64,000 nucleotides of DNA from Bacteroidia bacterium (GTDB lineage Bacteria > Bacteroidota > Bacteroidia > 2-12-FULL-35-15), in assembly GCA_030654175.1 (NCBI GenBank), contig JAURXZ010000030.1, forward strand, positions 124,001-188,000, written 5' to 3'. A program made the position numbers and the translations under genes. This document shows positions 18,136 to 51,619 of this stretch, piece by piece. Below the pieces are notes generated by a model. That model was given only the letters and a program-made list of their open reading frames with translations. It searched no databases and was not told the origin of the DNA. The stretch's first letter is position 1. Every line of letters starts with the position of its first letter.

Positions 18136-18203
18136 ATAAGTTGAAAGTCAAAAGTTAAAAAGTTAAAAGTTTTAATTATCACAGATTAGAAATCCGAATG
18201 AGT

Positions 18204-18956
18204 TTAACCGAAACGACCTGTAATATAATTTTGTGTACGTTCATTCTTCGGGTTAGTAAATATCATTTTTGTACTATCGTGCTCGACCAATTCTCCCATA
18301 TAAAAAAATGCAGTAGTGTCGCTCACCCGTCCGGCTTGCTGCATATTATGGGTTACAATTACAATAGTATATTGACTTTTTAATTCATAAATAAGCTCTT
18401 CCACTTTTGCCGAAGAAATTGGATCCAGGGCTGATGCAGGTTCATCCATAAGAATCACAGTTGGTGCAACTGCAAGAGTTCTGGCAATACATAGTCTTTG
18501 CTGTTGTCCACCGGACAATGCAAGAGCAGAGTTCTTTAATTTATCTTTAACCTCTTCCCAAAGAGCGGCTTGTTTTAAAGATTTTTCTACTACCTCATCA
18601 AGTATTTTTTTGTCTTTAATACCTTGAATTCTCAATCCATAAATTACGTTTTCATAAATTGTTTTTGGAAAAGGATTTGGTTTTTGAAAAACCATACCTA
18701 TTTGTTTTCTTAATTCTTCAACACGAATTTGTTTATCATAAATATCAGAGCCATCTATTTCTATCCTTCCCTCCATTTTAAAAATATCGATATAGTCGTT
18801 CATTCGATTAAACAACCTAAGAAAAGTAGATTTCCCACAACCTGAGGGACCAATAAACGCGGTAACTGTATTTTTTTTTATAGAGATAGAAACATCTTTA
18901 ATTACCTGATTGGGACCATAAAAAACATTTACATTACGTGCTTCGAGCTTATTCAT
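18204..18956 (-). CDS. pstB: Phosphate ABC transporter ATP-binding protein
   Basis: A 250-residue ABC ATPase. Walker A is GPSGCGKST (36-44), the Q-loop is VFQKPNPFP, the signature is [16 protein letters not shown], Walker B is [13 protein letters not shown] and the switch His is in [21 protein letters not shown] and the ALDPISS segment are diagnostic for PstB. It powers high-affinity phosphate import with PstCA. It starts 21 nt after pstA in the pst operon. Confidence 0.97.
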
Positions 18957-18977
18957 TTTTTATTTTTTTATAGAAAT

Positions 18978-19835
18978 TTACCATTGCACCTTTTTCTGCC
19001 ATTTATTACGCAGGTACATTGCGATTCCATTCAAAACAAATGTAACCATCAATAGTACAATTATGGCAGAGGCAGCATTGATTGCAAATCCTTTTTGAGG
19101 TCTTGAAATCCAGTTAAAAATTTGAATGGGCAATACAGAAAACTCATCCGTGGGACTTGATGGAACAAATGGTACATAGGCCAATGCGCCAATTACTATC
19201 AACGGAGCTGTTTCACCCACAGCCCTTGATAAGGCCAGAATAATACCGGTAATAATTCCACCAAAAGAAGCAGGTAATAATTGATAGGATATTGTTTGCC
19301 ATTTTGATGCGCCCATGGCAAAAGAAGCTTCTTTAATTGATTTAGGAACAGCTTTTAGTGCTTCACGGGTTGAAACAATTATTATAGGCAATATTAATAA
19401 TGATAAGGTACTTGCACCTGCCAACAAACTCCCCCCCATACCCATGATCCTTCCAAATATTTCTAAACCCAAAAGTCCGTAAATGATAGATGGAACCCCA
19501 GCCAGGTTGCTAATATTAATTTCAAGAACATTGGCCAACCTGCTTTTTTTTCCATACTCCTCAAGATAAATAGCGGCAGAAATTCCAAGAGGAATTGAAA
19601 TAATTGCAGTAAGGCCCATGATCCATAAAGTACCTATCAAAGCTGGTAAAATACCGGCTTTATCAGGATTCCTTGATGGAAAATTGGTTATAAAATCCCA
19701 ATCGATACGCGCAAATCCTTCAATTAAAATATTGCCAATAAAAATAGCAAGCATTGCTAATCCAAAGGTGGTGCAGCCGATGCCAAAATATTTAAAAGCA
19801 TTATCTTTTAGTCTGTTTTTTTTCGAACTATTCAT
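18978..19835 (-). CDS. pstA: Phosphate ABC transporter permease PstA
   Basis: A 285-residue, six-helix permease with the EAA-type coupling loop [27 protein letters not shown]. PstA pairs with PstC to form the phosphate channel. The start overlaps the pstC stop by 8 nt, suggesting coupled translation. Confidence 0.95.
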
Positions 19836-20706
19836 ATTTCTCCTGAAATTTCTTTTTAACCCAGTAACTTATATTGTTCAGAATAAATGTAAAAACAAAC
19901 AATGCCATACCGGCAGCAAATATGGTTCGGTATTCTAATGAGCCATGCGCAACATCACCAGTACTCACCTGTACGATGTATGTTGTAATTGTTTCTATTG
20001 GAACCAATGGATTCAATGTTAATCGTGGCTGCTGGCCAGCGGCAATCGCCACGATCATTGTTTCCCCAACTGCTCTTGAAATTCCAAGAATTACGGACAC
20101 AATTATTCCGGAAGAAGCGGCAGGAACCATTACTTTAAATGCTGTTTGCAAACGGGTTGAGCCCATACCATAGGATGCTTCTCTTAAGGATTTTGGAACT
20201 GCGAATAAAGCATCTTCACTTAATGAGGTAATTAAAGGAATGATCATAATTCCCATTACAATTCCTGCGGATAAAGCATTAAAACCTGCCATTCCCGGAA
20301 TAATATTCTGAAGAAATGGAGTTACAACAGATAATGCAAAAAAACCATATACAACAGTTGGAACAGCTGCCAATATTTCAAGCAATGGTTTAACAATTTT
20401 CCTGAAGCTTTTTGGAGCATATTCATTTAAATAAACTGCTATAGTTAATCCTATCGGAAGTGCGACTATGATGGCTATTGTAGTGGTGAGAAAAGTACCG
20501 GCAACAAGCGGAAGTATGCCAAAATGTTTATCTGCAAATAACGGAGTCCACTGTGTATCAGTAAGGAAATCTACGATTGAAACTTCCGAAAAGAAATCTA
20601 TTGTTTGAGAAAACAACACCCAAATAATTCCAATAGTAGTAAGCACAGTTACAACAGCAGCAAGTGCAAGCCCTGTTTCAATTATCTTTTCTTTTATTCT
20701 TGGCAT
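19828..20706 (-). CDS. pstC: Phosphate ABC transporter permease PstC
   Basis: I choose ATG at 20706 (292 residues, [13 protein letters not shown]); an upstream in-frame TTG at 20727 would add seven residues and approach a hairpin. Six hydrophobic helices are present, and the coupling loop is [26 protein letters not shown]. It is the permease partner of PstA. A stem-loop with a T-rich 3' side lies between pstS and this gene, and probably lowers pstCAB expression relative to pstS. Confidence 0.93.
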
Positions 20707-20728
20707 TCTGTTTTTTACTAAAAACAAA

Positions 20729-20752
20729 TGGCTCCTAAATATTAAGGAGCCA
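20729..20752 (-). terminator. Stem-loop between pstS and pstC (partial terminator)
   Basis: A perfect 8-bp stem (20729-20736 with 20745-20752; TGGCTCCT/AGGAGCCA) with an 8-nt AT loop is followed on the - strand by a T-rich run before pstC. Such intercistronic hairpins commonly let the binding protein be made in excess over the permease. Read-through to pstC is expected, since no other pstC promoter is evident. Confidence 0.65.
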
Positions 20753-20789
20753 ATTGCTTTAATCGGTACCTCATTTTAACAACTACTAA

Positions 20790-21773
20790 TTACTTCGAAA
20801 GCGATTTTACAAACTCGTCAAATTTTGATTTCTCAGCCTTATACTCTTCATCAGTCATGGATATATATCCCACTTCCTGTGACAGTGCACCACCATTAGT
20901 CAAATAAAAATCAACAAATGCCTGAACCTCTTTTCGTTTTGCGGCAGTGCTGTTTACGTATATAAATAATGGACGACTTAATGGAGAATAGGTTTTATTT
21001 TTTACTGTTTCAATGGACGGAAGAATTGGTCCTTTCCCGTTTTCATCATTTTGATCATCTACAGGTACCACTTTTAATTTATCTTTATTTTCTTCAAAGT
21101 AAGCAATTCCAAAAAATCCTAATGCCAATTTATCTGTTGAAATCCCCTGAACAAGTACGTTATCGTCTTCACTTGCTGTGTAATCTCCACGGCTGGAGTG
21201 ACTTTTCCCAACAATTGCTTCTGTGAAATAGTCGTAGGTACCTGACTCAACTCCTGCTCCAAATAGATGAATTTCTTCTTTTGGCCATTCCGGACGGATC
21301 TGATTCCAGAATTTAATTTTCCCTTGCGCTTCAGGCTCCCATATTTTTTTTAATTCAGTAACGGTGATATCATTCACCCAGGTATTTTGTGGATTTACCA
21401 CAACAGCCATACCATCAAACGCTACTTTCATTTCAAGGCTGGTAATATTGCTTGCTTTACATAAACTGTCCTCCTTTTTAGTAATTGGCCTCGAAGCATC
21501 ATTAATGTCTGTTTCACCACGACCGAACTTTTTGAATCCGCCACCCGTACCGGATAAACCTATCGTAACTTTTACATCTGGATAACCGACCTTAAATTCT
21601 TCTGCAACTGCTTCAGAAATTGGATATACTGTGCTTGAACCATCAATTTTGATCTCACCCACAAGGTTTTCAGTGTCTGTATTGCCTTCAGATTTTGAAT
21701 CCTTGGAACCACCGCAGGCGCTAAACATTAAAGCAGATCCGACAAATAAAGTTGCTATTTTAATTATTCTCAT
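20790..21773 (-). CDS. pstS: Phosphate-binding lipoprotein PstS
   Basis: A 327-residue substrate-binding protein with a lipoprotein signal ending in LMFSAC (Cys20). The phosphate-binding patterns are IDGSSTVYPISEAV, GLSGTGGGFKKFGRGETDINDASRPI and GVESGTYDYFTEAI, with the binding Ser/Thr/Asp/Arg residues expected of PstS. It is anchored in the periplasm and delivers phosphate to PstCA. It is the first gene of pstSCAB-phoU, with a Pho-box-like repeat upstream. Confidence 0.96.
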   Translation of the reverse strand: MRIIKIATLFVGSALMFSACGGSKDSKSEGNTDTENLVGEIKIDGSSTVYPISEAVAEEFKVGYPDVKVTIGLSGTGGGFKKFGRGETDINDASRPITKKEDSLCKASNITSLEMKVAFDGMAVVVNPQNTWVNDITVTELKKIWEPEAQGKIKFWNQIRPEWPKEEIHLFGAGVESGTYDYFTEAIVGKSHSSRGDYTASEDDNVLVQGISTDKLALGFFGIAYFEENKDKLKVVPVDDQNDENGKGPILPSIETVKNKTYSPLSRPLFIYVNSTAAKRKEVQAFVDFYLTNGGALSQEVGYISMTDEEYKAEKSKFDEFVKSLSK

Positions 21774-21796: not shown

Positions 21797-21843
21797 CAAA
21801 GTAACTATTGAAATCTCGGCCCCATGTTAAGCTATTGTTAAAT
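21797..21843 (-). promoter_or_regulatory. Pho-box-like promoter of pstS
   Basis: On the - strand, TTTAACAATAG is followed 11 bp later by TTAACAT (half-sites within 21824-21843). The downstream half-site begins 33 nt before the last base of a -7-like TTACTTTG (21797-21804). Two direct half-sites at 11-bp spacing are the architecture of PhoB-type boxes. Placement before pstS makes phosphate control likely. Confidence 0.7.
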
Positions 21844-21902
21844 TATTTAGATTTTTTCAGGTAAATGCGAAAAAAGTGCTAGCATTTCTTGTTTTGTTTT
21901 GT

Positions 21903-23171
21903 TTAAAAATTAAATTGAGCTTGTAATCGAAGTAAGCTACCCTTTTGTTGGTTGTATTGCAACTTATAATCTTCAAATCTTCGTTCTGAGATGGTATACA
22001 TTGCAACTAGTTCAAAGTTTTTAAATGGTTGCCACTCCACTCCTATTTCATTTTCGGTTACCGTATAACTTCTTGCATCTAATTCGTGTTTTTTGCCTCC
22101 ATCATAATACTGGATCCTTACAAAAGGAATGATGATCTGTTTTTTCAATTTTAAAAGGCATGATGCTGTAACATATCCACCTTTTAATGTTTGAGTTTCT
22201 ATTGAATCCGTTACACGGTTAAACTCCGGACCACGCCCAATGTTATACTCTGCTTGTATACCGAAAGGTTTTGGATATAATACAAAACTAGCCGCAACCC
22301 TTTCATCAACAAATGAAAAGGCTTTATTTGGACCTTTTACCCCGGTTGACCTATTCTCAACAACATACATTCCTTTATACCCTTGAACTCCTGGTTCAAT
22401 TATTTGTCCAAAAATTTCTATCGGATATGTAATACGAGCAACATAGTGCGGGTCATTATTTAGATCATTTTTATTTGCAGTTTGTCCATTATATGCTCCA
22501 ATCCCAAAAACACCATAATCTCCACTTCCTTTTAATCCATCATTTACTAATGAAGTATACAATTTTCTTGTCTTTTCAGGCACCCAATAAAAGAACACTC
22601 CCAGATCACGTTCATTTGAAACCGCACTATTTAAAGCGTCATTTCTGTCCAATGGTAAACGATTTTGACTTGATTGTAAATTTTCGAAACCGAAAGGAAC
22701 TTTACTCTGACCTACACGGAAACGAAATTCTTTCTTTTTATCCAATGATAGATCAAAATAAGCATCACGTAATTGAGCAAAATTATTTGAACCGGTAGAA
22801 GGAGATGAAGCAAAATCAGGCTGAACATAGATATACAATCTTTCATGAACATTTCCGCTAAAAATTATACGCATTCGCCTGATAAAAAAACCACCACTTC
22901 CCCAGGATTTATCACATTGCTCACATTTTAACGAATCATTTGTTTCAAACAATCTATTGTATCTAACCTGGGCATAACCTCTTATTGCTATTTGCTCATA
23001 CCAATGCTTGGTTGGAACTTTCGTTTCCACTAATTGGGGTTTAGCCAATATAGAATCTTTAGTTGAAGCAACCGATTTACTGCTTTCAATTTTCACCTCT
23101 TGGGCAATACCTGATGTTAATAGCCCAGAGCTTATAATACAGGTTAACAAAACATTTCTTTTAAGGTCCAT
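21903..23171 (-). CDS. OprO/OprP-like (phosphate-selective type) outer-membrane porin
   Basis: A 422-residue protein with a signal peptide (MDLKRNVLLTCIISSGLLTSGIA) and a beta-barrel typical of the phosphate-selective porin O/P family: IRGYAQVRYNRLFE at the barrel start, FFIRRMRIIFSGNVHERLYIYVQPDF, GQSKVPFGFENLQSSQNRLPLDRNDAL, ending in RLQAQFNF with a terminal Phe. The family usually aids anion or phosphate passage across the outer membrane. It sits directly upstream of pstS in the same direction with its own Pho-like box. The actual substrate is inferred from family and context. Confidence 0.88.
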   Translation of the reverse strand: MDLKRNVLLTCIISSGLLTSGIAQEVKIESSKSVASTKDSILAKPQLVETKVPTKHWYEQIAIRGYAQVRYNRLFETNDSLKCEQCDKSWGSGGFFIRRMRIIFSGNVHERLYIYVQPDFASSPSTGSNNFAQLRDAYFDLSLDKKKEFRFRVGQSKVPFGFENLQSSQNRLPLDRNDALNSAVSNERDLGVFFYWVPEKTRKLYTSLVNDGLKGSGDYGVFGIGAYNGQTANKNDLNNDPHYVARITYPIEIFGQIIEPGVQGYKGMYVVENRSTGVKGPNKAFSFVDERVAASFVLYPKPFGIQAEYNIGRGPEFNRVTDSIETQTLKGGYVTASCLLKLKKQIIIPFVRIQYYDGGKKHELDARSYTVTENEIGVEWQPFKNFELVAMYTISERRFEDYKLQYNQQKGSLLRLQAQFNF

Positions 23172-23208
23172 TTCCGTTAATTTATTGTTAATAAATCTTT
23201 ATCAACGA

Positions 23209-23253
23209 CAAATGTATTCCTTCTTTTGACCATAAATGTTAATTTAATGTTAA
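23209..23253 (-). promoter_or_regulatory. Pho-box-like promoter of the porin gene
   Basis: TTAACA half-sites (- strand) occupy 23248-23253 and 23237-23242, exactly 11 bp apart. A perfect TAnnTTTG (TACATTTG, 23209-23216) follows, with the downstream half-site starting 33 nt before its final G, the same geometry as at pstS. Confidence 0.75.
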
Positions 23254-23530
23254 GGTTTAAGTAAAATAAAAACAATCATTCATTGCAGTAATCTGAATCA
23301 TTAGATAACATGAATCTATATAAAAAGATTAAAAGTTTTTTCAAAGAACTATTAAAACTGCATGGTTGTGAAATAGTTGGGTTTGCTTAAAACAAAATTA
23401 GCCACACATTATTTTTTTTTCAATACAAAGGTTAACTCCCAATAGTGATACATATCAAAATTATTAACAATCAGTACCACAATTATTGGAATTCAATGTT
23501 AACAAAAAGAAAAGCTTACCGACCATTTAC
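23254..23530. other. Divergent intergenic region, left part
   Basis: The 441-base gap between the porin and TonB-receptor genes is AT-rich and holds regulatory sequence at both ends (listed separately). The middle, from about 23260 to 23510, shows no open frame, hairpin or repeat that I can support. Confidence 0.5.
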
Positions 23531-23586
23531 TTAACATTATTTTCATTTCGGGCTAATACTTAGTTAACCTTACGACAGTTCCTTTG
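23531..23586 (+). promoter_or_regulatory. Pho-box-like array upstream of TonB-dependent receptor
   Basis: Four half-sites in strict 11-bp phase: TTAACA (23531), TTCATT (23542), CTAATA (23553) and TTAACC (23564). A TTCCTTTG -7 element ends at 23586, which is 33 nt from the third half-site start. Two of the four are weak matches, but the phase is the same as at 31320-31358. Confidence 0.55.
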
Positions 23587-23612
23587 TAAGAAAAATAGAA
23601 AGGAAATTATAA

Positions 23613-26468
23613 ATGAAAAATAAATTGTTTATTACGCTTGCAGTTATCATATATATAAATGCAGCCTTTGCTCAAAATTCAACTATTAAAGGAAAAGTAA
23701 TTGATGAGAAAACCGGGGAGACTTTACCTGGTGCAGTTGTTGTCATTCAAGGAACATTTACCGGAAGCAATACAGATCTGGATGGCGCTTTCAGTATTGA
23801 AAATATTGTTCCCGGAAAATATTCGCTGGAATGTAAACTAATTTCATACAACACTAAGTTACTTACTGATGTAATTGTAAAAACCGGTGAACCAACAATT
23901 GTATCGTTAACATTATCGGCTGCGTCAACGGATTTAGGAGTAGTTGAGATAGTTGCAACGATGAACAAAGAAACAACGAACGCTATGTTGGTGATGCAAA
24001 AAAATAACGCGTCAGTATCAGACGGGATCTCATCAGAAGCCATAAAAAGAACTCCTGACCGGAATACGAGTGATGTACTAAAACGCATCAGCGGTGCTAG
24101 TATCCAGGATAATAAATTTGCCATCATCAGGGGATTGAACGATCGTTATAATGCGGCATATATTAATGGTGCACCATTACCTAGCTCCGAGTCAGACAGG
24201 AAGGCGTTCGCTTTTGACATATTCCCTTCCAACATGCTTGATAATTTAGTGATAATAAAAACTGCCACCCCTGATATGCCCGGAGATTTTGCAGGTGGTG
24301 TGATCCAGATAAATACAAAAAGCATCCCCGAAAAAAATGAACAAACTGTTTCTATTTCCGGAGGATATAATACCATTACTACTTTCAAAGAATTTAAAAC
24401 GTATGATGGTGGGAAGTACGATTTTTTAGGAATGGATGATGGAGCAAGAGCTATCCCAAAAGAAATCCCTTCAACAGCCGATTACCAAAATTTATCACTA
24501 GAAGAAAAAGGGGAATACGCAAAAAAAATGACTCCTTCCTGGAAAATAAATACAACTTCCGCCTTACCTAATCTAAACTTACAATATACCCTTGCAAATG
24601 TGGGCAAAATTTTAAAGAAAGATGCAGGGAGTTTATTCGCTTTTACTTATAATAATAATTATACTACTAATGAAACCATAAGAAGGGAGTATGAGGAACA
24701 ATCCACAGGTGTTGTAAAAAGGATGGAACTTAATGATATGCTTTATACACAAAGCGTTTTAGCAAGTGCCATGTGGAATTTATCATATAAGCTGAACGAC
24801 AACAATCAATTAAGTTTAAAAAATTTATATAGTGTAAATAGTGATGATAAAGTGGCTATTCGTAGAGGAGCCAGAGAATATGACCAACCAGAAAAATATT
24901 GGGAAAAAGCCTCTTTGCGTTGGTTCACACAAAACAATTTATTAAGCTCACAATTAATCGGAACTCATTTATTACCGAATAATAAAATTAAAATTAATTG
25001 GATCGGTGGCTTAAGTAATATAAAAAGAGATATTCCCAATATGAGACGGATGGTATACCAAAAAACAGCTGCTAATGAAAATGACGCCACAACTAATTAT
25101 GCTGCTGTTATTCAAAATGAAGGAACTATCCCCAACTCTGCCGGAAATATGTTTTTTTCTACAACAACAGAAAATATTTACAGTGTAAAATATGATATTG
25201 GCCTGCCTGTTGAAATAAAAAATTCAAAAACCGAAATCAAAATTGGAGGATTTCATCAATTCCGTGACAGAATATTTGATTCCAGAAGTTTAGGTTTTTC
25301 AAAATATAGAAAAGGAAGTAGTATAAAATTTGACAGTGAACTACTTTACTTACCTGAAGAAGAAATTTTTGCCCCTGAAAATATGGGGGTGCTTGATAAC
25401 AATGGATCTTCTAAAGGAGGATTCAAATTGGATGAAGCAACAAAAACAAGTGATAGCTATAAAGCATCATCATTAACAAATGCTGGTTTTGCAATGTTTG
25501 ACACAAAAATATTAGAGAGGTTCCGATTTATTTATGGCGCAAGATTAGAATCTTATAACCAGCACATGGAAACAATCCAAGAAGGTACAAGCGAGCCAAT
25601 TATTGTAGATACAACCATTAATGACATTTTGCCATCTGTTAATATGGTTTATTCATTAAGTCCAAAAATGAATTTACGCGCCAGTTATTACAGAACGGTA
25701 AACAGGCCTGAATTCAGAGAGTTGGCGCCCTTTATCTTTTTTGATTTTTTAACAGATTTTGCTATTACCGGTAATTTATATCTGCAACGCGCGTTGATCG
25801 ACAACTATGATCTACGTTATGAATGGTTTCCAGGAGCGGGACAAATTTTTTCGGTTTCAGGATTTTACAAAGAGTTTAAAAACCCAACAGAGATCGCAAA
25901 CAGACCCGATGTGTTACGTGAATTATATTATATAAACGCCCCTAAAGCGACTAACACAGGTGTTGAACTTGAATACCGCGTTAAGCTTTCATCATTATTT
26001 AAAAATGACACGAACACTTTTTTAAATTCAATAACACTGTTTAGTAATTTCGCTTACATCATTTCCAAAGTAGATGTAAGTCACGTAAATGGGTCTACAG
26101 AAAAAGAAAGACCATTGCAAGGGCAATCACCAGTAGTGGTAAATGCGGGAATTCAATTCATGCATCCAACAAATGGCTGGAGTGGGAACGTTTCTTATAA
26201 TTTTGTTGGTCGCAGGCTTTATATAGTAGGTAGCACAAGTGAGCCTGATTATTGGGAAAATCCACGCAATGTCCTGGACTTTCAAATTGCAAAAAGAATA
26301 AAAGAGCGTTTAGAAATAAAATTAAACGTAAGAGATATGCTTGCTCAAAATTTAATTTTTTATCAGGATATTGATAAAAATAGCAAATACGATAAAGAAA
26401 AAGATAACACAATGGTTACTACCAATTATGGACAAACCATATCTCTTGGTGTTACTTATAAATTTTAA
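23613..26468 (+). CDS. TonB-dependent outer-membrane receptor, likely phosphate-starvation induced
   Basis: A 951-residue protein. Signal peptide (residues 1-20); a carboxypeptidase-regulatory-like beta domain (about 24-108, KGKVIDEKTGETLPGAVVVIQGT); plug domain (about 130-245, with NTSDVLKRISGASIQDNKFAIIRGLNDRYNAAYING and GDFAGGVIQINTKSIPE); then a long 22-strand barrel ending in TISLGVTYKF. It takes up a ligand across the outer membrane using TonB energy. The ligand cannot be read from sequence. It lies divergent from the porin and upstream of a T9SS-exported beta-helix protein, and all three have Pho-like boxes, so a phosphorus-containing substrate is a reasonable inference. Confidence 0.9.
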   Translation: MKNKLFITLAVIIYINAAFAQNSTIKGKVIDEKTGETLPGAVVVIQGTFTGSNTDLDGAFSIENIVPGKYSLECKLISYNTKLLTDVIVKTGEPTIVSLTLSAASTDLGVVEIVATMNKETTNAMLVMQKNNASVSDGISSEAIKRTPDRNTSDVLKRISGASIQDNKFAIIRGLNDRYNAAYINGAPLPSSESDRKAFAFDIFPSNMLDNLVIIKTATPDMPGDFAGGVIQINTKSIPEKNEQTVSISGGYNTITTFKEFKTYDGGKYDFLGMDDGARAIPKEIPSTADYQNLSLEEKGEYAKKMTPSWKINTTSALPNLNLQYTLANVGKILKKDAGSLFAFTYNNNYTTNETIRREYEEQSTGVVKRMELNDMLYTQSVLASAMWNLSYKLNDNNQLSLKNLYSVNSDDKVAIRRGAREYDQPEKYWEKASLRWFTQNNLLSSQLIGTHLLPNNKIKINWIGGLSNIKRDIPNMRRMVYQKTAANENDATTNYAAVIQNEGTIPNSAGNMFFSTTTENIYSVKYDIGLPVEIKNSKTEIKIGGFHQFRDRIFDSRSLGFSKYRKGSSIKFDSELLYLPEEEIFAPENMGVLDNNGSSKGGFKLDEATKTSDSYKASSLTNAGFAMFDTKILERFRFIYGARLESYNQHMETIQEGTSEPIIVDTTINDILPSVNMVYSLSPKMNLRASYYRTVNRPEFRELAPFIFFDFLTDFAITGNLYLQRALIDNYDLRYEWFPGAGQIFSVSGFYKEFKNPTEIANRPDVLRELYYINAPKATNTGVELEYRVKLSSLFKNDTNTFLNSITLFSNFAYIISKVDVSHVNGSTEKERPLQGQSPVVVNAGIQFMHPTNGWSGNVSYNFVGRRLYIVGSTSEPDYWENPRNVLDFQIAKRIKERLEIKLNVRDMLAQNLIFYQDIDKNSKYDKEKDNTMVTTNYGQTISLGVTYKF

Positions 26469-26549
26469 TCCTCGTTAGACTTTATCCACGTTAAAATGTC
26501 ACGAATGCTTTGGTAATGGATAGTTTCTGCTGAAACTAACTCTAGCTGC

Positions 26550-26639
26550 GTCATCCCGAACTTTTGTGAGGGATCATATTATGAATAATAACACTTACGA
26601 CTTACGAGCCCCCTTGGCGAAAAAGCCAATCGGGATGAC
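26550..26639. repeat. REP-like inverted-repeat element
   Basis: Terminal arms GTCATCCCGA (26550-26559) and TCGGGATGAC (26630-26639) are perfect inverted complements around an 80-base interior. Just inside the right arm, TTGGC (26614-26618) and GCCAA (26625-26629) form a second hairpin. It is GC-richer than its surroundings. The form is like dispersed REP/MITE elements; no other copy is in this window. Confidence 0.55.
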
Positions 26640-26841
26640 ACTGCCTATAAAATCAAATTTTCATTCAATCTTAAAATTGTTTAAAACTAAATTACTGATA
26701 GAAATAATTTGAAATAAAAATTAAACAGGCTCTAACTTATATAAAACATATTTTAAGAAGAAAAAGCGATTTCAAAAATTTCTTCCCTGAATGAATCCGA
26801 AAACTACTGAATAGTTTCAATGAAAATTTTAAAACCTAATG

Positions 26842-26965
26842 ATAACATTAAATTAACATATCAATTCTGTTTTCAAATTACTCCTACTTAACATTAAATT
26901 AAGGCATTAATAAGATATACACAACTTAGCGTTAATTATTACACAACACGCTGGCACTAGTTTTG
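26842..26965 (+). promoter_or_regulatory. Pho-box-like promoter region of the beta-helix gene
   Basis: Two pairs at 11-bp spacing: ATAACA/TTAACA (26842 and 26853) and TTAACA/TTAAGG (26888 and 26899). A perfect TAGTTTTG -7 element is at 26958-26965. The nearer pair lies 66 nt from the final G and a single TTAATT half-site lies at 33 nt (26932). The rest of the 534-base gap from 26469 holds only the inverted-repeat element. Confidence 0.6.
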
Positions 26966-27002
26966 TAACCAAATATTACAAACAAATAATATTAATTTAA
27001 AA

Positions 27003-28655
27003 ATGAAAAAAATGAAAAAATTTTACGTACTAGCATTAGCAGGCTTAATGGGAGGTTCATTAAATGCACAAACTGCTTTTTGGACTCCGACTACTTACAA
27101 AGGAGCATTCCCAGTAACAGATAATACTTCCGCTACAGACTGGACAAACGGTTGGACAAATTTTGATCCTGAAAATACTGCTTATGGTGCAACCACTGTA
27201 ACAGTTAGTGCTGACATTACAACTAATACTACCTGGGTAACAGGAACAATTGTAAACTTACAAAACAAAGTTTTTGTTAAGAACAACGCAGTATTAACAA
27301 TTGAGCCAGGAGTAATCGTAAGAGGAGATAAAAATACTCAAGGAACTTTAATAATTACAAAAGGTGCGAAAATAATTGCTGCCGGAACATCAAGCAACCC
27401 AATTGTATTTACATCAGGAGAAGCTGCGGGTCTTCGTGCTGAAGGAGATTGGGGCGGAGTACTTATTGCTGGGAAAGGCGTGAATAACCAACCTGGTGGT
27501 GTTGCCAACTTTGAAGGATTGGCAGTTTCAACTGATACAGAATTCGGAGGAACCGATGATACAGATAGTTCAGGGGTATTAACGTATTGCCGTATTGAAT
27601 TTTCTGGAATTCCATTACAACCAAACAAAGAAACAAATGGAATCACAATGGGATCAGTTGGTTCTAAAACTGTAATGCACCATGTTCAGGTATCTTTTGG
27701 TGGCGATGATGGTTTTGAATGGTTTGGGGGGAAATTAGATGCAAAATATTTAATTTCTTTTAGAAATTTGGATGATGATTTTGATTGTGATTTCGGTTGG
27801 AGAGGTCGTGTTCAATTTGGATTAATAATAAGAGACTCTGACTTGTTTGATGCAGCGGGAGATTCAAATGGTTGGGAGTGCGACAATGATGCTGCCGGTT
27901 CAGCAGCAACACCAAAAACTCAACCTGTATTTTCTAACATTACCAATGTAGGACCATTGCGCAATGGAACAATTACTTTACCGGCTGGCGAAAAATTTGA
28001 AAGAGCAATTTATCTTAGAAGAAATTCTGCTGTATCAATTTTCAACTCCATTCATAGTTCTTGGGAAAAGGGCATTTATATTAAAGATGCAGGCACCGTG
28101 GCTAATTTTACAAGTAATGAAGCGGTATTTGCCAACAACTTAATTGCATCTGACATTGCAAAATGTATCACTGTTGATGCAAATGCTATTTCAACCTTCT
28201 ATGCCACAATTTTTTCAAGCAGTAATAATGATTCAACAAAAACCCCTGCAGAAATAGCATGGGTAAATGCATTCCCCGCTTTGTTATCTACCACACCGGA
28301 TTATCGTTTGCAATCATCATCAATTGCTGCAACAGGAGCCTCATTTAGCGATAGTAAATTTGACATCACTGCTGGAATTAACGAAAATAGAAATAAAATC
28401 AGCAGTATCCGTTTATATCCAAACCCTGCGAACACACAAGCTACAATTGACTTGAATTTAGATGAACCTGCAACAGTTGCAATAACTGTTTATGACATTA
28501 CAGGAAAAGTTGCAGTAAATGCATTTACAGGTGAGATGAATTCAGGTATCAATACTGTTAAAATAAATACCACTGAAATACCGGCAGGAATTTATTTCAC
28601 AACTATTGTTTCAAACAATGTGAAGAAAACATTGAAAACTGTTGTTATTAAATAA
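27003..28655 (+). CDS. T9SS type A-sorted secreted protein with predicted beta-helix
   Basis: A 550-residue protein with a signal peptide (MKKMKKFYVLALAGLMGGSLNA). The middle has right-handed beta-helix character: short strands with Gly/Asn turns, TIEPGVIVRGDKNTQGTLIITKGAKIIAAGTSSNPIVFTS, and GGDDGFEWFGGKLDAKYLISFRNLDDDFDCDFGWRGRVQ. The last ~75 residues are a T9SS type A sorting domain (LYPNPANTQATIDLN ... VYDITGKVA ... GIYFTTIVSNNVKKTLKTVVIK). It is exported to the surface or medium. Following a TonB receptor and a Pho-like promoter, it may capture or degrade a phosphorus source, but no hydrolase motif is visible. Confidence 0.85.
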   Translation: MKKMKKFYVLALAGLMGGSLNAQTAFWTPTTYKGAFPVTDNTSATDWTNGWTNFDPENTAYGATTVTVSADITTNTTWVTGTIVNLQNKVFVKNNAVLTIEPGVIVRGDKNTQGTLIITKGAKIIAAGTSSNPIVFTSGEAAGLRAEGDWGGVLIAGKGVNNQPGGVANFEGLAVSTDTEFGGTDDTDSSGVLTYCRIEFSGIPLQPNKETNGITMGSVGSKTVMHHVQVSFGGDDGFEWFGGKLDAKYLISFRNLDDDFDCDFGWRGRVQFGLIIRDSDLFDAAGDSNGWECDNDAAGSAATPKTQPVFSNITNVGPLRNGTITLPAGEKFERAIYLRRNSAVSIFNSIHSSWEKGIYIKDAGTVANFTSNEAVFANNLIASDIAKCITVDANAISTFYATIFSSSNNDSTKTPAEIAWVNAFPALLSTTPDYRLQSSSIAATGASFSDSKFDITAGINENRNKISSIRLYPNPANTQATIDLNLDEPATVAITVYDITGKVAVNAFTGEMNSGINTVKINTTEIPAGIYFTTIVSNNVKKTLKTVVIK

Positions 28656-28676
28656 TCGGCAATAATTTCCACAAAT

Positions 28677-28711
28677 AAAACACCTGTACACTCATATTGT
28701 ACAGGTGTTTT
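28677..28711 (+). terminator. Rho-independent terminator after the beta-helix gene
   Basis: A perfect 14-bp stem (28677-28690 with 28698-28711) with a 7-nt loop, then TATTTTTTTT. It begins 22 nt after the stop codon. Confidence 0.9.
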
Positions 28712-28734
28712 ATTTTTTTTAGGAATTATATTAT

Positions 28735-28790
28735 TTAACATTTTTTTAACATTCAGAGAATGTTGTGGACATAAAAGTGGAATATTTTTG
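28735..28790 (+). promoter_or_regulatory. Pho-box-like promoter of small response regulator
   Basis: TTAACA occurs at 28735 and 28746, 11 bp apart. A perfect TATTTTTG -7 element is at 28783-28790. The nearer half-site is 44 nt from the final G, one 11-bp step further out than at pstS. Confidence 0.65.
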
Positions 28791-28804
28791 CAATAAAAAG
28801 CAAA

Positions 28805-29212
28805 ATGAATACTTCAAAAAAAATTTTAATTGTAGACGATGAACCAGATATTTTAGAGTTTCTTTCATACAACTTTCACAAAAAAGGTTTTCATGTAGCC
28901 ACGGCAATTAATGGCTTAGAAGGAATAAAAAAAGCAGAATCGGAATTACCTCAATTAATCATTTCAGATATCTTAATGCCAGAACTTGATGGGATAGAAA
29001 TGTGTAAAGCCATAAGGGAAATTCCGCAGCTAAAACTAACACCATTTTTATTTCTTACTGCAGTTAATGACGATTACAAGGTGCTTTATGCAATGCTATC
29101 AGGTGCGGACCAATACGTATCCAAGCCCATTAAATTTGAATATCTGTTGGTTATGGTAAATCAGTTAATAGAAGATAAAAAATGCTTGGTCAATAATATT
29201 TCGATGCAATAA
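28805..29212 (+). CDS. Single-domain response regulator (receiver only)
   Basis: A 135-residue CheY-type receiver. The acidic pair is D11-D12 (LIVDDEPD), the phospho-acceptor D55 (LIISDILMPELDG), the switch Thr is in FLFLTAVNDD and the Lys in YVSKPIKFEYL. There is no output domain. The receiver pattern is close to that of the PhoB-like regulator at 32510 (SDILMPELDG versus LDLLMPELDG). A Pho-like box precedes it, suggesting it is made during phosphate starvation. Its partner is not evident. Confidence 0.9.
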   Translation: MNTSKKILIVDDEPDILEFLSYNFHKKGFHVATAINGLEGIKKAESELPQLIISDILMPELDGIEMCKAIREIPQLKLTPFLFLTAVNDDYKVLYAMLSGADQYVSKPIKFEYLLVMVNQLIEDKKCLVNNISMQ

Positions 29213-29384
29213 TTTGAATAATTATGGATTTCTTTTTTTTGAATAAAAATGAAACGAACATTTAACCTCGTGATTAAAATCATTTTAATTGATTGGGATT
29301 GAGCGTATGTTTGCAGCCCAAAACGATCATTTTTTGCTTCTAAAAAGCAAATCCAGATCTTAACTCAAACTAAAATAAAAAAAC

Positions 29385-29786
29385 ATGAGCACATCCTTAA
29401 AAAAAATGAAAACGAAATCCAAACCTTCAAAAAAAGATCTTCAGAAAAAAGTATCAGAAATGTTAAATACATTTGTAAAATCAATAACAACTGTAGATAC
29501 AAAAAAAATAAAGAAAGCGATAAAAGTTGCTAGCAAAGCAATTGCCAAATCTGTTAAAAAATCAATAAATAAGAATTCGGTGAATCCCAATTTAAAGAAA
29601 TCCTCTATTACAAAAAATAAATCTTTAAGAAAATCAAATAAAAAAATGGTAGGTAAACCATCAGCGGAGCGAGTACTTTCCTTATTAAAAAACAAACAAA
29701 TTAATTCGCTGAAAAATATCGACCCCAAAAGCGTCAATAAAAAAACACTGGAAACACCCGCTCACCAGAAAAATCATAAATTTTAA
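29385..29786 (+). CDS. Lysine-rich basic protein, histone H1-like composition
   Basis: A 133-residue protein with about a third lysine or arginine, no membrane segment and no signal peptide. It has runs such as KKIKKAIKVASKAIAKSVKKSINK and a less basic middle (KPSAERVLSLLKNKQINSLKNIDPKSV). The composition suggests nucleic-acid binding, as in H1-like bacterial proteins, but no domain is recognised. A TATGTTTG -7 element lies at 29306-29313. It sits between two receiver-type genes. Low-complexity A-rich coding raises some doubt, though start, stop and promoter are consistent. Confidence 0.6.
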   Translation: MSTSLKKMKTKSKPSKKDLQKKVSEMLNTFVKSITTVDTKKIKKAIKVASKAIAKSVKKSINKNSVNPNLKKSSITKNKSLRKSNKKMVGKPSAERVLSLLKNKQINSLKNIDPKSVNKKTLETPAHQKNHKF

Positions 29787-29858
29787 AATAGTTGAAACTG
29801 ACTAATAAAAGTAATCCTCCAGAAATATTCATTTATTAATAATTATAGATATAAAAAT

Positions 29859-30236
29859 ATGAATCGTATCTTATTAGTATTTGACAATATAAAAGAACTT
29901 GAACATATAGAAGTGAATCTGACACGCAACGGATTTAAGATCTTAAAATCTTCCAGTTTAAAAGATGCTTTAACAAAGACTGAAGGAGCTATGCCCGATC
30001 TGATTGTAGTAAATACATTGGATGCAGAAAAAGAAGTAGAACTCTTCACTAATCAAGTAAAAATGAAATATCTGAGAAAAGCATTATTACCAAGTTTAAT
30101 TGAATTAGAAGATTATTTAAATATACAAACAAGAGAGCACATTGTTATTAGAGAATTATTGCGAAACAAAAAATATAGAAATAATGAAATAGTTTTTTTT
30201 ATTTCGAAAAAAGAATTAGTGAGCCGACCAAATTAA
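29859..30236 (+). CDS. Degenerate receiver-like protein
   Basis: A 125-residue protein. Residues 1-60 follow the receiver fold (ILLVFDNIKELEHIEVNLTRNGFKILKSSSLKDALTKTEGAMPDLIVVNTLDAE), but the phospho-acceptor position is Asn52 (VVNT instead of a Leu-Asp pattern) and one of the N-terminal acidic pair is missing (FDN). The second half does not carry the Thr and Lys receiver residues and is charged and helical. It may be a phosphorylation-independent pseudo-receiver. It follows the basic protein by 72 nt in the same direction. Confidence 0.65.
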   Translation: MNRILLVFDNIKELEHIEVNLTRNGFKILKSSSLKDALTKTEGAMPDLIVVNTLDAEKEVELFTNQVKMKYLRKALLPSLIELEDYLNIQTREHIVIRELLRNKKYRNNEIVFFISKKELVSRPN

Positions 30237-30442
30237 ATAGGTAGAGCGTAAAGAGAATTCTGTTATGGTAAATACTCTATTTGGAAGGCCAATAACAATA
30301 GAGGCAGCATCTTGAGTATATTCATAACAGCTAGAATTCAGGTTTAATTTTTAGAAAAAGGGATTACAATACGCTTGGTTATAAACAAATCAATATTTGT
30401 CATGTGACAAAATCACAACTGAAGATAAAACAGATTCCTCTT

Positions 30443-31069
30443 TTATGAAATTGTTTTTAAGAGATTAAGTACACTTGCTGATATCATTTCTATACCTATT
30501 GCCAATACCAAAAACCCCATAATTTTTGAGAGAGATTTTAACCCTGCATCGCCAGTATATTTTAAAATTTTTGGTGCAATTGAAAAAATCACAAAAATTG
30601 AAAAAGCCACTCCAACTATTGCTAACATTATTGAAACTTTTTTGTCCAGCTCAGGATATTCAATCCACATATTGATCAATAATGAAATAGAACCAGGGCC
30701 GGCTAATAATGGCATAGCAAGAGGACTAAAAGAAATATCGTCTTTCTCCAAAGCTTCCTGCTTTATTTTCCCCTTTATATCCCGCTTATGTTTTGCATTA
30801 AGCAATAAAAAGCCTGATCGGGAAATGATGATCCCTCCTGCAATCTTTAATGCATTTATGGAAATACCAAAAAAACCAAGGATGTGAGATCCGGCCAAAT
30901 ACGAGCAAGCACATATTACAATAATATACATACACGTTTTCCGGATCTGATAATTCCTCCATTTAGCATCATGATTTTCTGTTAATGAAATAAAAACAGG
31001 TAGTGCGCTTAAGGGATTGATGAGCGCAAAGAGGGAAACGAAACTGGCAATAAAAAAAGAAAGAGTCAT
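30443..31069 (-). CDS. MarC family membrane protein
   Basis: I choose ATG at 31069 (208 residues, MTLSFFIASFVSLFALINPLSALPVFISLT); an in-frame TTG at 31096 adds nine polar residues. Six membrane helices, the ALINPLSALP motif near the N-terminus and PLAMPLLAGPGSISLLINM in the middle are MarC/UPF0056 hallmarks. The family was once linked to antibiotic resistance without good support; the transport function is unknown. It stands alone within the phosphate-related segment. Confidence 0.9.
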   Translation of the reverse strand: MTLSFFIASFVSLFALINPLSALPVFISLTENHDAKWRNYQIRKTCMYIIVICACSYLAGSHILGFFGISINALKIAGGIIISRSGFLLLNAKHKRDIKGKIKQEALEKDDISFSPLAMPLLAGPGSISLLINMWIEYPELDKKVSIMLAIVGVAFSIFVIFSIAPKILKYTGDAGLKSLSKIMGFLVLAIGIEMISASVLNLLKTIS

Positions 31070-31319
31070 AAATAAATTCGAATTGTTTTTTTGCAAACCT
31101 ACTTTTCCTAATTCAAATGAAGTGATAGAAATAGTTAAGGAATTATTAAAGTGTTACGCTAAAAAATAAAAAAAATATTAAATTAATAACATAGAACAGG
31201 TGGTAAACAATTTTTGATTTTAACAATTCCGTAATTCCACAATTGCCCAAAAACTAAAAAACACCTTAAAATAAAGCCTCATTTATTCCTGAATTGCCGT
31301 TAACGCAAAGTTTACTTTG
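31070..31319. other. Intergenic sequence between marC-like and 31406 genes
   Basis: The 336-base divergent gap has a Pho-like array in its right part (listed separately). The left 250 bases are AT-rich with no open frame or hairpin that I can support; they should contain the - strand promoter for the MarC-like gene. Confidence 0.5.
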
Positions 31320-31386
31320 TTAACATAATATTCATATACTCTTAAAATCTGGATAACACCCTATCGGGTAAACGGACGTAGTTTTG
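31320..31386 (+). promoter_or_regulatory. Pho-box-like array upstream of small secreted protein
   Basis: Four in-phase half-sites at 11-bp steps: TTAACA (31320), TTCATA (31331), TTAAAA (31342) and ATAACA (31353). A perfect TAGTTTTG is at 31379-31386, and the last half-site starts 33 nt before the final G. This is the same order and phase as the array before the TonB receptor. Confidence 0.6.
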
Positions 31387-31405
31387 AAGTATAAAATCTA
31401 AGCAA

Positions 31406-31729
31406 ATGAAAACGCACATTATCACTTTTATTGCAATCTTAATAACAAGTGTTGCAATTGCAGGAAACAACACTAACATTAAGGAAAAAGACAATACAAA
31501 ACTGATTTCAGGCAAGGTAGTTGACAAAGTAAGTGGAGAAGAAATTGCAGGAGCCGAAATCAAAATTGACAATAAAGTTATTTACACTGACTTAAACGGA
31601 AATTTTATAGCAAATGTAAATTCAACAAAAACAGAAGCATTTGTCACTTTTGTTTCATATAATGATGCAAAAGTTAACATTGAGCCCTTTTCATATACCG
31701 CAATTGTTATCGAATTAGAATCTAAATAA
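31406..31729 (+). CDS. Small secreted protein with carboxypeptidase-like regulatory domain
   Basis: A 107-residue protein with a signal peptide (MKTHIITFIAILITSVAIAG). The rest is a single carboxypeptidase-regulatory-like beta-sandwich (ISGKVVDKVSGEEIAGAEIKIDNKVIYTDLNGNFIANV), the same fold as the N-terminus of the TonB receptor at 23613. There is no barrel or enzyme domain. The role is unknown; the Pho-like promoter suggests starvation expression. A terminator follows. Confidence 0.75.
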   Translation: MKTHIITFIAILITSVAIAGNNTNIKEKDNTKLISGKVVDKVSGEEIAGAEIKIDNKVIYTDLNGNFIANVNSTKTEAFVTFVSYNDAKVNIEPFSYTAIVIELESK

Positions 31730-31755
31730 ATATCCACTCCCCTATTAAAACCTCT

Positions 31756-31782
31756 CCTAACCTGTGTTAGGGAGTTTTTTTT
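31756..31782 (+). terminator. Rho-independent terminator
   Basis: A 6-bp core stem CCTAAC/GTTAGG (31756-31761 with 31766-31771), loosely extendable, is followed by an eight-T run (31775-31782). It is 27 nt after the stop of the secreted protein gene. Confidence 0.75.
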
Positions 31783-31822
31783 GCTTTTATAGCTACCAAA
31801 ATTGAAAATCCGCAATGTTAAC

Positions 31823-31895
31823 TTTACATTAACTTAACATTGCGACAGATTTATGCGATTTTGTTTCCTTTTTTTTAACACTCTTCATAGCTTTG
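31823..31895 (+). promoter_or_regulatory. Pho-box-like promoter of small MORN-repeat gene
   Basis: TTTACA (31823) and TTAACA (31834) are 11 bp apart. A perfect TAGCTTTG -7 element is at 31888-31895. The box is 61 nt from the final G, out of the 33/44 spacing seen elsewhere, so the link is weaker. Confidence 0.5.
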
Positions 31896-31929
31896 TATAA
31901 GAAATTGTAACTGTTAAAACATTAAGGCT

Positions 31930-32400
31930 ATGAAAAAAATTATTCTATTATTCATTGTAAGTCTCACACTGACTTTTGGAGTGTCGGCTCAAAACATAAT
32001 TTTAAAAGATGGTTTATATTATTCTGGTAACGGAAGTTTGTATACAGGATCCTATACCGCTTATTTAGAATCTGGAAATAAGAAATCAGTATTTGATATT
32101 ACTGAGGGTAAAGCAAACGGGGCCGTTACCTACTACTATGAAAATGGGGCGATAATGGAAACTGGTGCTTTCGCTGAAAATGAAAAAAATGGACAATGGT
32201 TGCGTTGGGATGAAGCGGGCCATAAGATAGCCGAAGCCTATTACGTATCAGGAAAGAAAAATGGCGTTTGGGTGGTATGGGATAATACTGGAATGAAACG
32301 TTACGAAATGATTTATGCAATGGGGCAAAAAACAGACACCTGGACCATGTGGGATGAAAATGGAAAAATCAGTAACATAAAAAATTATAATAATTTATAA
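31930..32400 (+). CDS. Small secreted MORN/YwqK-repeat protein
   Basis: A 156-residue protein with a signal peptide (MKKIILLFIVSLTLTFGVSA) and about four repeats of the MORN_2/YwqK type (YYYENGAIMETGAFAENEKNGQWLRWDEAGHKIAEAYYVSGKKNGVWVVWDNTG). It is a short relative of the protein at 12950. Exported; function unknown. It lies upstream of, and convergent with, the PhoB-like gene. Confidence 0.8.
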   Translation: MKKIILLFIVSLTLTFGVSAQNIILKDGLYYSGNGSLYTGSYTAYLESGNKKSVFDITEGKANGAVTYYYENGAIMETGAFAENEKNGQWLRWDEAGHKIAEAYYVSGKKNGVWVVWDNTGMKRYEMIYAMGQKTDTWTMWDENGKISNIKNYNNL

Positions 32401-32509
32401 AATCCCAAAAAAAAAATTAAGTCAAAGCATATTTATGGTTATAAAGATGACATTTGATCTAAGATTAATCTCCTTAATTTTATTGTAAAACCAGATGGTT
32501 TCGAGGAAA

Positions 32510-33193
32510 TTACCCTTCCAAACTATATCCAATTCCCTTTATTGTTTTAATGTATTTATCGCCTAATTTTTCACGGATTTTAAGTATGTGAACGTCAATT
32601 GTTCTATTCTTTGCAACAAATTCATACCCCCAAATTAATTGTGAAATTTCATCCCGGGTAAATACTTTCCGCGGTGATGCAGAAAGCAACGAAAGAAGTT
32701 CAAATTCTTTACGGGGCAAAATTATTTCTTTACCATCCTTAAAAATCAGGTAACGATCACGATCTATAATTAAACCGATAGAATCATTTTTAATTACTTT
32801 TTCCAGATTTGAGGGATGCCGTTTAAGCAATGCTTTTAGTCGACTTATCAAGACCCGCATTTTTGTAGGTTTTATAATGTAATCATCCGCACCTGCATTA
32901 AAAGCAGCTACCTGAGAATAATCTTCATTACGTTCGGTATAAAAAACAACAAGTGTACTAATTAACTCCGGCTTATGTCTTAGCTCAAGGCAAATATCAA
33001 TACCATCCAACTCGGGCATCAGCAAATCAAGTAGAACAAGTTGAGGGAGTTCATCAGTTGCAAGTTGAATTGCTTCCCGTGATTTGGTTGATGTGATGAC
33101 CACAAAACCTTCAGCTTTCAATGCGGCAGTAGCCTCCGACAGAAACTCTTCGTCAGTAGCTATAACTAATATTTTAAAATTAGAATTTGTCAT
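32510..33193 (-). CDS. PhoB/OmpR-family response regulator
   Basis: A 227-residue protein. The receiver domain (5-120) has acceptor D56 (LVLLDLLMPELDG), a Thr in VVFYTERNED and a Lys in YIIKPTK. A winged-helix OmpR/PhoB DNA-binding domain (about 130-225) shows ILPRKEFELLSLLSASPRKVFTRDEISQLIWG and NRTIDVHILKIREKLGDKYIKTIKGIGYSL. Within a phosphate locus with many 11-bp-repeat boxes it is the natural candidate for their regulator. The N-terminal acidic pocket (ATDEEF) is slightly unusual. No histidine kinase of PhoR type is adjacent, so the name phoB is not assigned. Confidence 0.88.
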   Translation of the reverse strand: MTNSNFKILVIATDEEFLSEATAALKAEGFVVITSTKSREAIQLATDELPQLVLLDLLMPELDGIDICLELRHKPELISTLVVFYTERNEDYSQVAAFNAGADDYIIKPTKMRVLISRLKALLKRHPSNLEKVIKNDSIGLIIDRDRYLIFKDGKEIILPRKEFELLSLLSASPRKVFTRDEISQLIWGYEFVAKNRTIDVHILKIREKLGDKYIKTIKGIGYSLEG

Positions 33194-33237
33194 TTAGCAT
33201 TTGAATAACTCTGCTAAAGTAGTTTTGCAATATGGCT

Positions 33238-33265
33238 TTTACATTAACTTAATATTATTTTTACT
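33238..33265. promoter_or_regulatory. Three 11-bp-spaced Pho-like half-sites upstream of the PhoB-like gene
   Basis: TTTACA (33238), TTAATA (33249) and TTTACT (33260) are in 11-bp phase, 45 nt or more upstream of the regulator start. They read on the + strand, opposite to the gene, unlike the other boxes, so autoregulation is only a suggestion. Confidence 0.45.

Positions 33266-49126: not shown

Positions 49127-51619
<2,493 letters not shown>

Follow-up and report, generated by a model that had tools for sequence, protein, structure and literature searches.

Do the TTAACA-like repeats that recur at 11-nt steps around the phosphate-uptake genes of a Bacteroidia bacterium (assembly GCA_030654175.1) constitute a Pho box, and if so, which genes do they govern and which protein binds them? 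The DNA concerned, here termed the window, is a 64,000-nt stretch of contig JAURXZ010000030.1 (positions 124,001 to 188,000), part of contig 16 of a 5.10-Mb genome; the closest named relatives of its PstS belong to metagenome-assembled genomes of Bacteroidota. A preliminary description had placed the repeats before eight genes of an 11.5-kb island in the window (positions 21,797 to 33,265), had joined ten or more genes into one phosphate regulon and had nominated a PhoB-like regulator encoded in the island at 32510 as the binding protein. As argued below, the 11-nt TTAACA repeats are very probably a Bacteroidota Pho box. We further consider it highly likely that such predicted boxes activate six promoters of the island at low phosphate, with the product of a gene elsewhere in the genome (C27:55085-55753) as the most likely protein to bind them. 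Three properties by which a Pho box is judged are found: direct repeats at 11 nt lie upstream of Pho genes, their placement relative to the core promoter is fixed, and a box precedes the candidate regulator's own gene.

Six island promoters with boxes in a fixed register

The genes of the island and the adjoining operon, in window coordinates, are the following:

17458..21773, minus strand: pstS-pstC-pstA-pstB-phoU, operon-like
20790-21773, minus strand: pstS
21903-23171, minus strand: OprP-type porin (Porin_O_P)
23613-26468, plus strand: TonB receptor
starts at 27003, plus strand: protein with a type IX secretion system (T9SS) tail, the "beta-helix" gene
28805..29212, plus strand: stand-alone response-regulator receiver
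31406-31729, plus strand: small CarbopepD-type protein
starts at 31930: MORN protein
32510..33193, minus strand: OmpR-family regulator, a PhoB paralog

PstS and PhoU score above NCBIfam cut-offs, and pstC, pstA and pstB were named by eye from translations of the open reading frames (ORFs). Pfam matches only the sorting tail of the protein encoded at 27003, and its beta-helix label is that of the preliminary description. Upstream of these genes, the repeats are placed as follows, with distances counted from the start of each half-site to the last G of the -7 element:

21825..21841, minus strand: pstS box, TTAACA-N5-TTAACA, half-sites 44 and 33 nt before the last G (21797) of TTACTTTG (21797-21804)
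23237..23264, minus strand: porin box, TTACTT/TTAACA/TTAACA, 55, 44 and 33 nt before G 23209 of TACATTTG (23209-23216); the TTAACA-N5-TTAACA pair spans 23237-23253
23531..23558, plus strand: probable TonB receptor box, TTAACA/TTCATT/CTAATA, 55, 44 and 33 nt before G 23586 of TTCCTTTG (23579-23586)
26842..26904, plus strand: TTAACA pairs of the beta-helix gene, 58-123 nt from the -7 G (26965), not significant in register
28735..28751, plus strand: receiver 28805 box, TTAACA-N5-TTAACA, both half-sites exact, 55 and 44 nt before G 28790 of TATTTTTG (28783-28790)
31320..31358, plus strand: 31406 box, TTAACA/TTCATA/TTAAAA/ATAACA, 66, 55, 44 and 33 nt before G 31386 of TAGTTTTG (31379-31386)
31818..31839, plus strand: overlapping TTAACT/TTTACA/TTAACA repeats of the MORN gene, outside the Pho register
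33242..33258, minus strand: regulator 32510 box, ATAATA-N5-TTAATG, 44 and 33 nt before G 33214 of TACTTTAG (33214-33221)

The half-sites that the preliminary description had read exactly 33 nt before the last G at pstS, the porin and 31406 are thus correctly placed on the sequence, and the one it had reported at the TonB receptor exists as well, in the weak form CTAATA. To score these sites, a matrix of three half-sites (-55, -44 and -33) and the -7 element was trained on 36 foreign pstS upstream regions, and each promoter was compared with 1000 dinucleotide shuffles of itself. The boxes of the porin (24.4 bits), receiver 28805 (21.3), pstS (17.3) and 31406 (14.6) were equalled in none of the 1000 shuffles, and those of the TonB receptor (12.1 bits, p 0.011) and, in the sense orientation, of regulator 32510 (11.9 bits, p 0.009) also stand out. 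Because close relatives were in the training set, the pstS score is less independent than the scores of the other promoters; in addition, training windows were mis-set for most of 13 distant PstS loci, which trained the matrix little or as noise, and one training locus (L150) is titled Dehalococcoidales. Matrix sites of at least 17 bits on either strand of the window are confined to the porin, 28805 and pstS, all within the island, and the reversed window reaches a maximum of 12.6 bits. One further site in the genome (L131) scores 18.2 bits in about 52 kb of comparison stretches and overlaps a second-class box (see the following section).

The register itself is informative. When each box was slid from -5 to +5 nt against its -7 element, the unshifted position was the best of 11 for six of the nine window promoters (P 4e-5), namely pstS, the porin, the TonB receptor, 28805, 31406 and 32510; it was not the best for the beta-helix, MORN and DUF47 promoters. 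The beta-helix and MORN repeats reach shuffle p values of 0.033 and 0.022, respectively, at places that match no promoter, and a value of 0.036 was obtained upstream of marC. The genome's own DUF47-PiT promoter was tried as an extra target and rejected as out of register. The sequence evidence accordingly supports six of the eight promoters named in the preliminary description, while the repeats before the MORN and beta-helix genes exist but are weak and out of register. The pstS box probably also drives pstC-pstA-pstB-phoU, down to 17458, and with pst taken as one operon the six promoters would account for ten genes.

A genome-wide search with TTAACA-N5-TTAACA at a fixed distance from the -7 element, as the preliminary description had proposed, gave matches that cluster in the island within this genome and exact matches that recur in genomes of the class. 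The composite TTAACA-N5-TTAACA-N20-TAnnTTTG occurs with up to two mismatches at seven sites of the genome, four of them in the island (binomial value 9e-10, which treats the four sites as independent); the porin site is the only exact match, pstS has one mismatch and 31406 two, and the 28805 site is counted among the four through a spurious -7 element, its real one lying 11 nt further on. Three sites were set aside as chance matches: C31:965 and C31:386358 lie inside coding frames, and C27:263906, between two ORFs of which the lower is mce-like by eye, could be real. Looser counts fare differently. With three mismatches, the window holds 252 matches against 217 +/- 14.5 in the control and the genome 57 composite matches against 46, and the bare pair with two mismatches is found 1551 times in the genome vs 2078 times for the reversed pattern, i.e. 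less often than the control; two exact minus-strand sites of the window are absent among the bare-pair matches listed, and no exact count was drawn from them. The signal is carried only by close matches in register, and loose counts are nearly uninformative. Elsewhere in the window, positions 49977-50803 contain numerous GTAACACNGGTTCAACA-like copies, several of them spaced 27 or 54 nt apart, which match the box pattern by chance and resemble a coding tandem repeat.

Recurrence across the class and a second class of boxes

The search set comprised 296 genomes of the class, including this one. In the 33-nt register, the exact composite was found 17 times in 16 genomes, against 0 for the reversed pattern, and the genes downstream encode two OprP-type porins (one being that of the island), five PHO4-type transporters (L185 among them with a score short of the Pfam cut-off), two DUF47 proteins and a single PhoB-type regulator, along with seven other proteins. 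When the distance between box and promoter was left free, 121 matches were obtained in 93 genomes, against 13 controls, and 101 of them fall within three peaks, at 22 nt (17 sites), 32-35 nt (6, 17, 31 and 4) and 43-45 nt (4, 14 and 8) from half-site start to -7 G. Peaks 11 nt apart are expected of a protein that has to keep to the same helix face. Sites at 21-23, 32-33 and 43-44 nt, which include the porin and 28805 boxes of the island, number 60 and precede 59 proteins; 28 of these are phosphate-transport proteins (DUF47 14, PHO4 5, Na/Pi cotransporter 4, Porin_O_P 3, PstS 2), three are receivers and 28 belong to none of the named families. The protein scan left out six of the 121 sites for want of an ORF of 70 codons, and the related genomes are not independent samples: L182 and L183 represent the same site, and several DUF47 matches come from one family, f38. 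Across these genomes, TTAACA boxes recur at fixed distances from the -7 element before pstS, OprP-type porins, PiT/DUF47 genes, Na/Pi cotransporters and PhoB-type regulators.

A second class (43 sites, 42 proteins), at 34, 35 and 45 nt, has other gene content: DUF1573 proteins (12), T9SS-tailed proteins (4) and only two PHO4 proteins, one of them weak. These boxes favour TTAACANNTC(A/G)TTAACA, carry TCA or TCG in spacer positions 3-5 in 14 of 43 cases vs 1 of 60 in the Pho class, and also occur on the opposite strand. Phosphate-transport proteins make up 28 of 59 in the Pho class vs 2 of 42 in the second (Fisher 1.6e-6, a value that is descriptive because the split was made after the histogram and gene names had been seen). 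The remaining 18 sites (14 proteins), outside both classes, include one DUF47 protein. The second class probably represents another OmpR-type regulon, perhaps of RprY type. In this genome, a second-class box at C16:66277-66356 (L053, L131, L074) lies between divergent genes and adjoins an RprY-like kinase-regulator pair.

In-register sites are conserved in orthologs at the porin, 28805, 32510 and TonB receptor promoters. For porin orthologs at least 55% identical, an in-register site with p<=0.01 is present in six of eight loci (L115 and L137 share one contig, and L180, among the six, was fetched by the box search). A site precedes all three orthologs of receiver 28805 (L119, L120 and L200, the last fetched by the box search) and, in register, all four orthologs of regulator 32510 (L120, L121, L124, L129; p<=0.007), and the sole ortholog of the TonB receptor at least 50% identical with upstream DNA (L116) scores 22.1 bits. 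None of five MORN homologs has a site at p<0.05, and two orthologs of the beta-helix gene at least 58% identical are equivocal (10.0 and 8.1; p 0.01 and 0.04). The 31406 box is absent in two close orthologs (L121 and L129), which speaks against it, and present before two remote look-alikes (L297 and L298) that were themselves found through the box. In all four of these loci a 31406-type CarbopepD gene and a MORN gene lie close together, and in L121 and L129 both also adjoin a 32510-type regulator.

Relatives' pstS promoters also carry 11-nt TTAACA boxes, and several relatives have high-scoring DUF47 promoters; a pstS site is found in 0 of 4 loci that are not Bacteroidota by title (L156-L159). 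The PstS protein itself varies within the genus: its best match is only 31-35% identical in 12 of 24 same-genus genomes (G001-G024) and 81% identical in G010, and PstS has seemingly been exchanged within the genus, the adjoining phoU remaining 70-89% identical in the genomes looked at.

The candidate regulator and the alternatives

Two proteins come into consideration as the activator, and they are 53% identical over 221 residues. The C27:55085-55753 protein is the genome's own best match to the PhoB model NF053854, on which the 32510 protein ranks sixth among its regulators, and it has an intact canonical receiver pocket (D-D, D, T, K). The 32510 receiver has A-T-D where PhoB has D-D-E, with the phospho-Asp, Thr and Lys kept, and in four relatives the acidic pocket of its orthologs reads D-N or D-T, followed by D. 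Although the C27 gene is not near pst in this genome, its relatives lie within about 6 kb of pstS in six other loci (L117, L119, L145, L146, L149, L151). Its promoter has half-sites at 55, 44 and 33 nt (12.9 bits, shuffle p 0.003) from a poor -7 element, GAACTTTA, and was slid through shifts -1, 0 and +1 only; the 17 exact matches include its ortholog L181, and boxes precede PhoB-like genes near pst in L117 and L119 (p<0.01), L149 (0.02) and L146 (0.06), with none in L151 and L145. The 32510 protein is therefore probably not the master PhoB, a role that the C27 gene appears to fit better, and with its acidic pair replaced 32510 is more likely a target and modulator than a master switch.

Receiver 28805 is 51% identical to the C27 receiver and retains the D-D/D/T/K residues. 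In midpoint-rooted trees of 19 and 23 rows, 28805-type stand-alone receivers fall inside the Bacteroidota PhoB clade (receiver tree), as do 32510 and four same-genus relatives, which form a separate clade within it. As judged from these trees and their promoters, 28805 and 32510 are offshoots of the PhoB lineage that bear predicted Pho boxes, and since both are PhoB relatives the regulon probably has a feedback layer. We raise only tentatively, as a possibility that we think less likely than not, that 28805, with a receiver able to take phosphate, and 32510, with a broken pocket and a similar DNA-binding domain, form a Pho-induced built-in brake, the two draining the kinase and competing for the boxes. 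A third receiver-like protein without Pfam match is encoded at 29859-30236 of the window; it aligns weakly to the PhoB receiver, has seemingly lost several receiver residues and has no Pho-box signal upstream.

In the mechanism that we propose, half-sites of the form TTAA(C/T)(A/G) at 11-nt steps lie on one helix face and overlap the -33 region. A PhoB-family regulator, most likely the C27 protein, would be phosphorylated at low phosphate, as its family and the box geometry suggest, would bind at least two half-sites in head-to-tail arrangement and would recruit RNA polymerase, replacing the -33 element, at the promoters of pstS(-CAB-phoU), the OprP-type porin, the TonB receptor, receiver 28805, 31406 and regulator 32510. 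In a box of the 33-nt register, about 15 nt separate the end of the final 11-nt unit from the sigma-A -7 element TAnnTTTG that follows. This element spans -12 to -5 in Flavobacterium psychrophilum (PMC9723704); with that numbering applied here, a half-site at 33 nt begins at -38 and one at 44 nt at -49, which places them over the -33 region, a position that would fit activation by sigma-A contact at a promoter without a good -33 element.

Several observations weigh against this reading. Both candidate proteins are below the cut-offs of the curated PhoB models (for C27, 213.7 of 270 on NF053854 and 222.6 of 296.2 on TIGR02154; for 32510, 159.0 and 155.3 on the same scales), for which reason the C27 protein is called PhoB-like here, and the best PhoR-like kinase, C6:152317, is an orphan with 240 bits vs a cut-off of 334. 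Of 42 pstS upstream regions, 31 reach p<=0.01, a count weakened by the fact that most of them helped train the matrix; those of L123, L126, L145 and L148 show no site, and the genome's own DUF47-PiT promoter scores weakly (9.1 bits, p 0.027). More than half of the in-register proteins (31 of 59, the three receivers included) are not phosphate-transport proteins by Pfam, and TTAACA pairs at 34 nt also mark non-phosphate genes, DUF1573 accounting for 12 of 42. The opposite-strand pair is about as frequent (at least 114 matches vs 14 controls), and since this pair, meant as a null, has peaks of its own at 39-41 and 49-50 nt, orientation is not a clean control. Given the frequency of the opposite-strand pair and the genes behind the 34-nt sites, a bare TTAACA-N5-TTAACA is not diagnostic of phosphate genes. 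Finally, the OprP porin of Flavobacterium johnsoniae was not induced (PMC8115612).

The same data bear on other readings of the repeats. That the 32510 protein rather than the C27 product is the activator, as the preliminary description held, strikes us as doubtful and on balance unlikely: it is encoded inside the island behind a conserved box, its orthologs lie near pst in four members of the genus and it is 53% identical to the C27 protein, but both acidic-pocket residues are replaced, its PhoB scores are lower, relatives of the C27 protein lie near pst in six other loci, and among the loci compared its orthologs occur only in same-genus genomes, whereas boxed phosphate genes are found in many other families. 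Another OmpR-family regulator, for example of RprY type, might use the same half-site, with the phosphate genes as a side set; the 34-nt boxes before DUF1573 and T9SS genes, one copy adjoining an RprY-like pair, point in that direction, but the two classes differ by 1 nt in register as well as in spacer and gene content, the six window promoters with support all keep to the 33/44 register, and we regard this explanation as improbable. Chance in AT-rich intergenic DNA would suit the loose matches, barely above or below controls, and the MORN and beta-helix repeats; as an account of the whole it is very hard to credit, given the 17 exact in-register matches against 0 for the reversed pattern, the lack of high matrix scores in the reversed window and the same distances before phosphate genes across genomes, and it is already disfavoured for six of the eight promoters. 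Activation through Pho boxes by the C27 protein thus remains the reading that we prefer.

Relation to known systems and significance

The PhoP box of Bacillus subtilis consists of direct repeats of TT(A/C/T)A(C/T)A at intervals of about 11 bp. The predicted Bacteroidota box resembles it in half-site letters, in the 11-nt direct repeat and in the kinds of targets; it differs in its TAnnTTTG core promoter, in half-sites placed 22, 33 or 44 nt from the last G and in a regulator of the Bacteroidota PhoB clade. In the PhoB box of Escherichia coli, as here, at least two 11-nt direct repeat units immediately precede the core promoter, but the half-site is CTGTCAT and 10 bp separate the box from a downstream -10 TAN3T/A element (PMC4415409, PMC1906773). 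The cyanobacterial SphR box CTTAACCT, built of 8-bp repeats with 3-bp linkers and belonging to a regulon found in silico by footprinting, shares the TTAAC core and 11-nt period, whereas its half-site ends in CC rather than CA, at least three repeats are described, and phylum and promoter are others (PMC1906773). The YycF/WalR box TGT(A/T)A(A/T/C)-N5-TGT(A/T)A(A/T/C), also bound by an OmpR-family regulator, is the reverse complement of the same 11-nt repeat, and Staphylococcus epidermidis pstS, with TTAACA/TTTACA, is a predicted site of it; the consensus is written in the opposite orientation, however, and the predicted targets have many functions (PMC5405149).

Within the Bacteroidota, the phoBR cluster of F. 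johnsoniae (Fjoh_0541-0549) is described as comprising OprP, PhoR, PhoB, a TonB-dependent transporter (TBDT) and a lipoprotein with IPR011050, the latter two being induced on depletion of inorganic phosphate (PMC8115612). It resembles the island in having an OprP-type porin, a PhoB-type regulator and a TonB receptor followed by a lipoprotein gene, and differs in that phoR and phoB stand in one cluster, whereas the best candidates here lie apart from each other and elsewhere; neither "pho box" nor "motif" appears in the main text of that paper (PMC8115612). PhoB of Bacteroides fragilis binds its pstC promoter in gel shifts, in a paper in which the word "consensus" occurs 0 times and whose available passages give none (PMC3547664). 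Among the matches listed in the open-access literature searched, as far as their available passages go, no Bacteroidota Pho-box consensus was found.

PhoB regulons have already been reported for Bacteroidota, which, in a statement on plant-associated members, are described as major phosphorus recyclers (PMC8115612). With a consensus tied to a fixed promoter register, their regulons could be predicted in thousands of genomes, and phosphate sites could be told from look-alikes one nucleotide out of register. The finding also points to feedback proteins derived from PhoB that can be tested.

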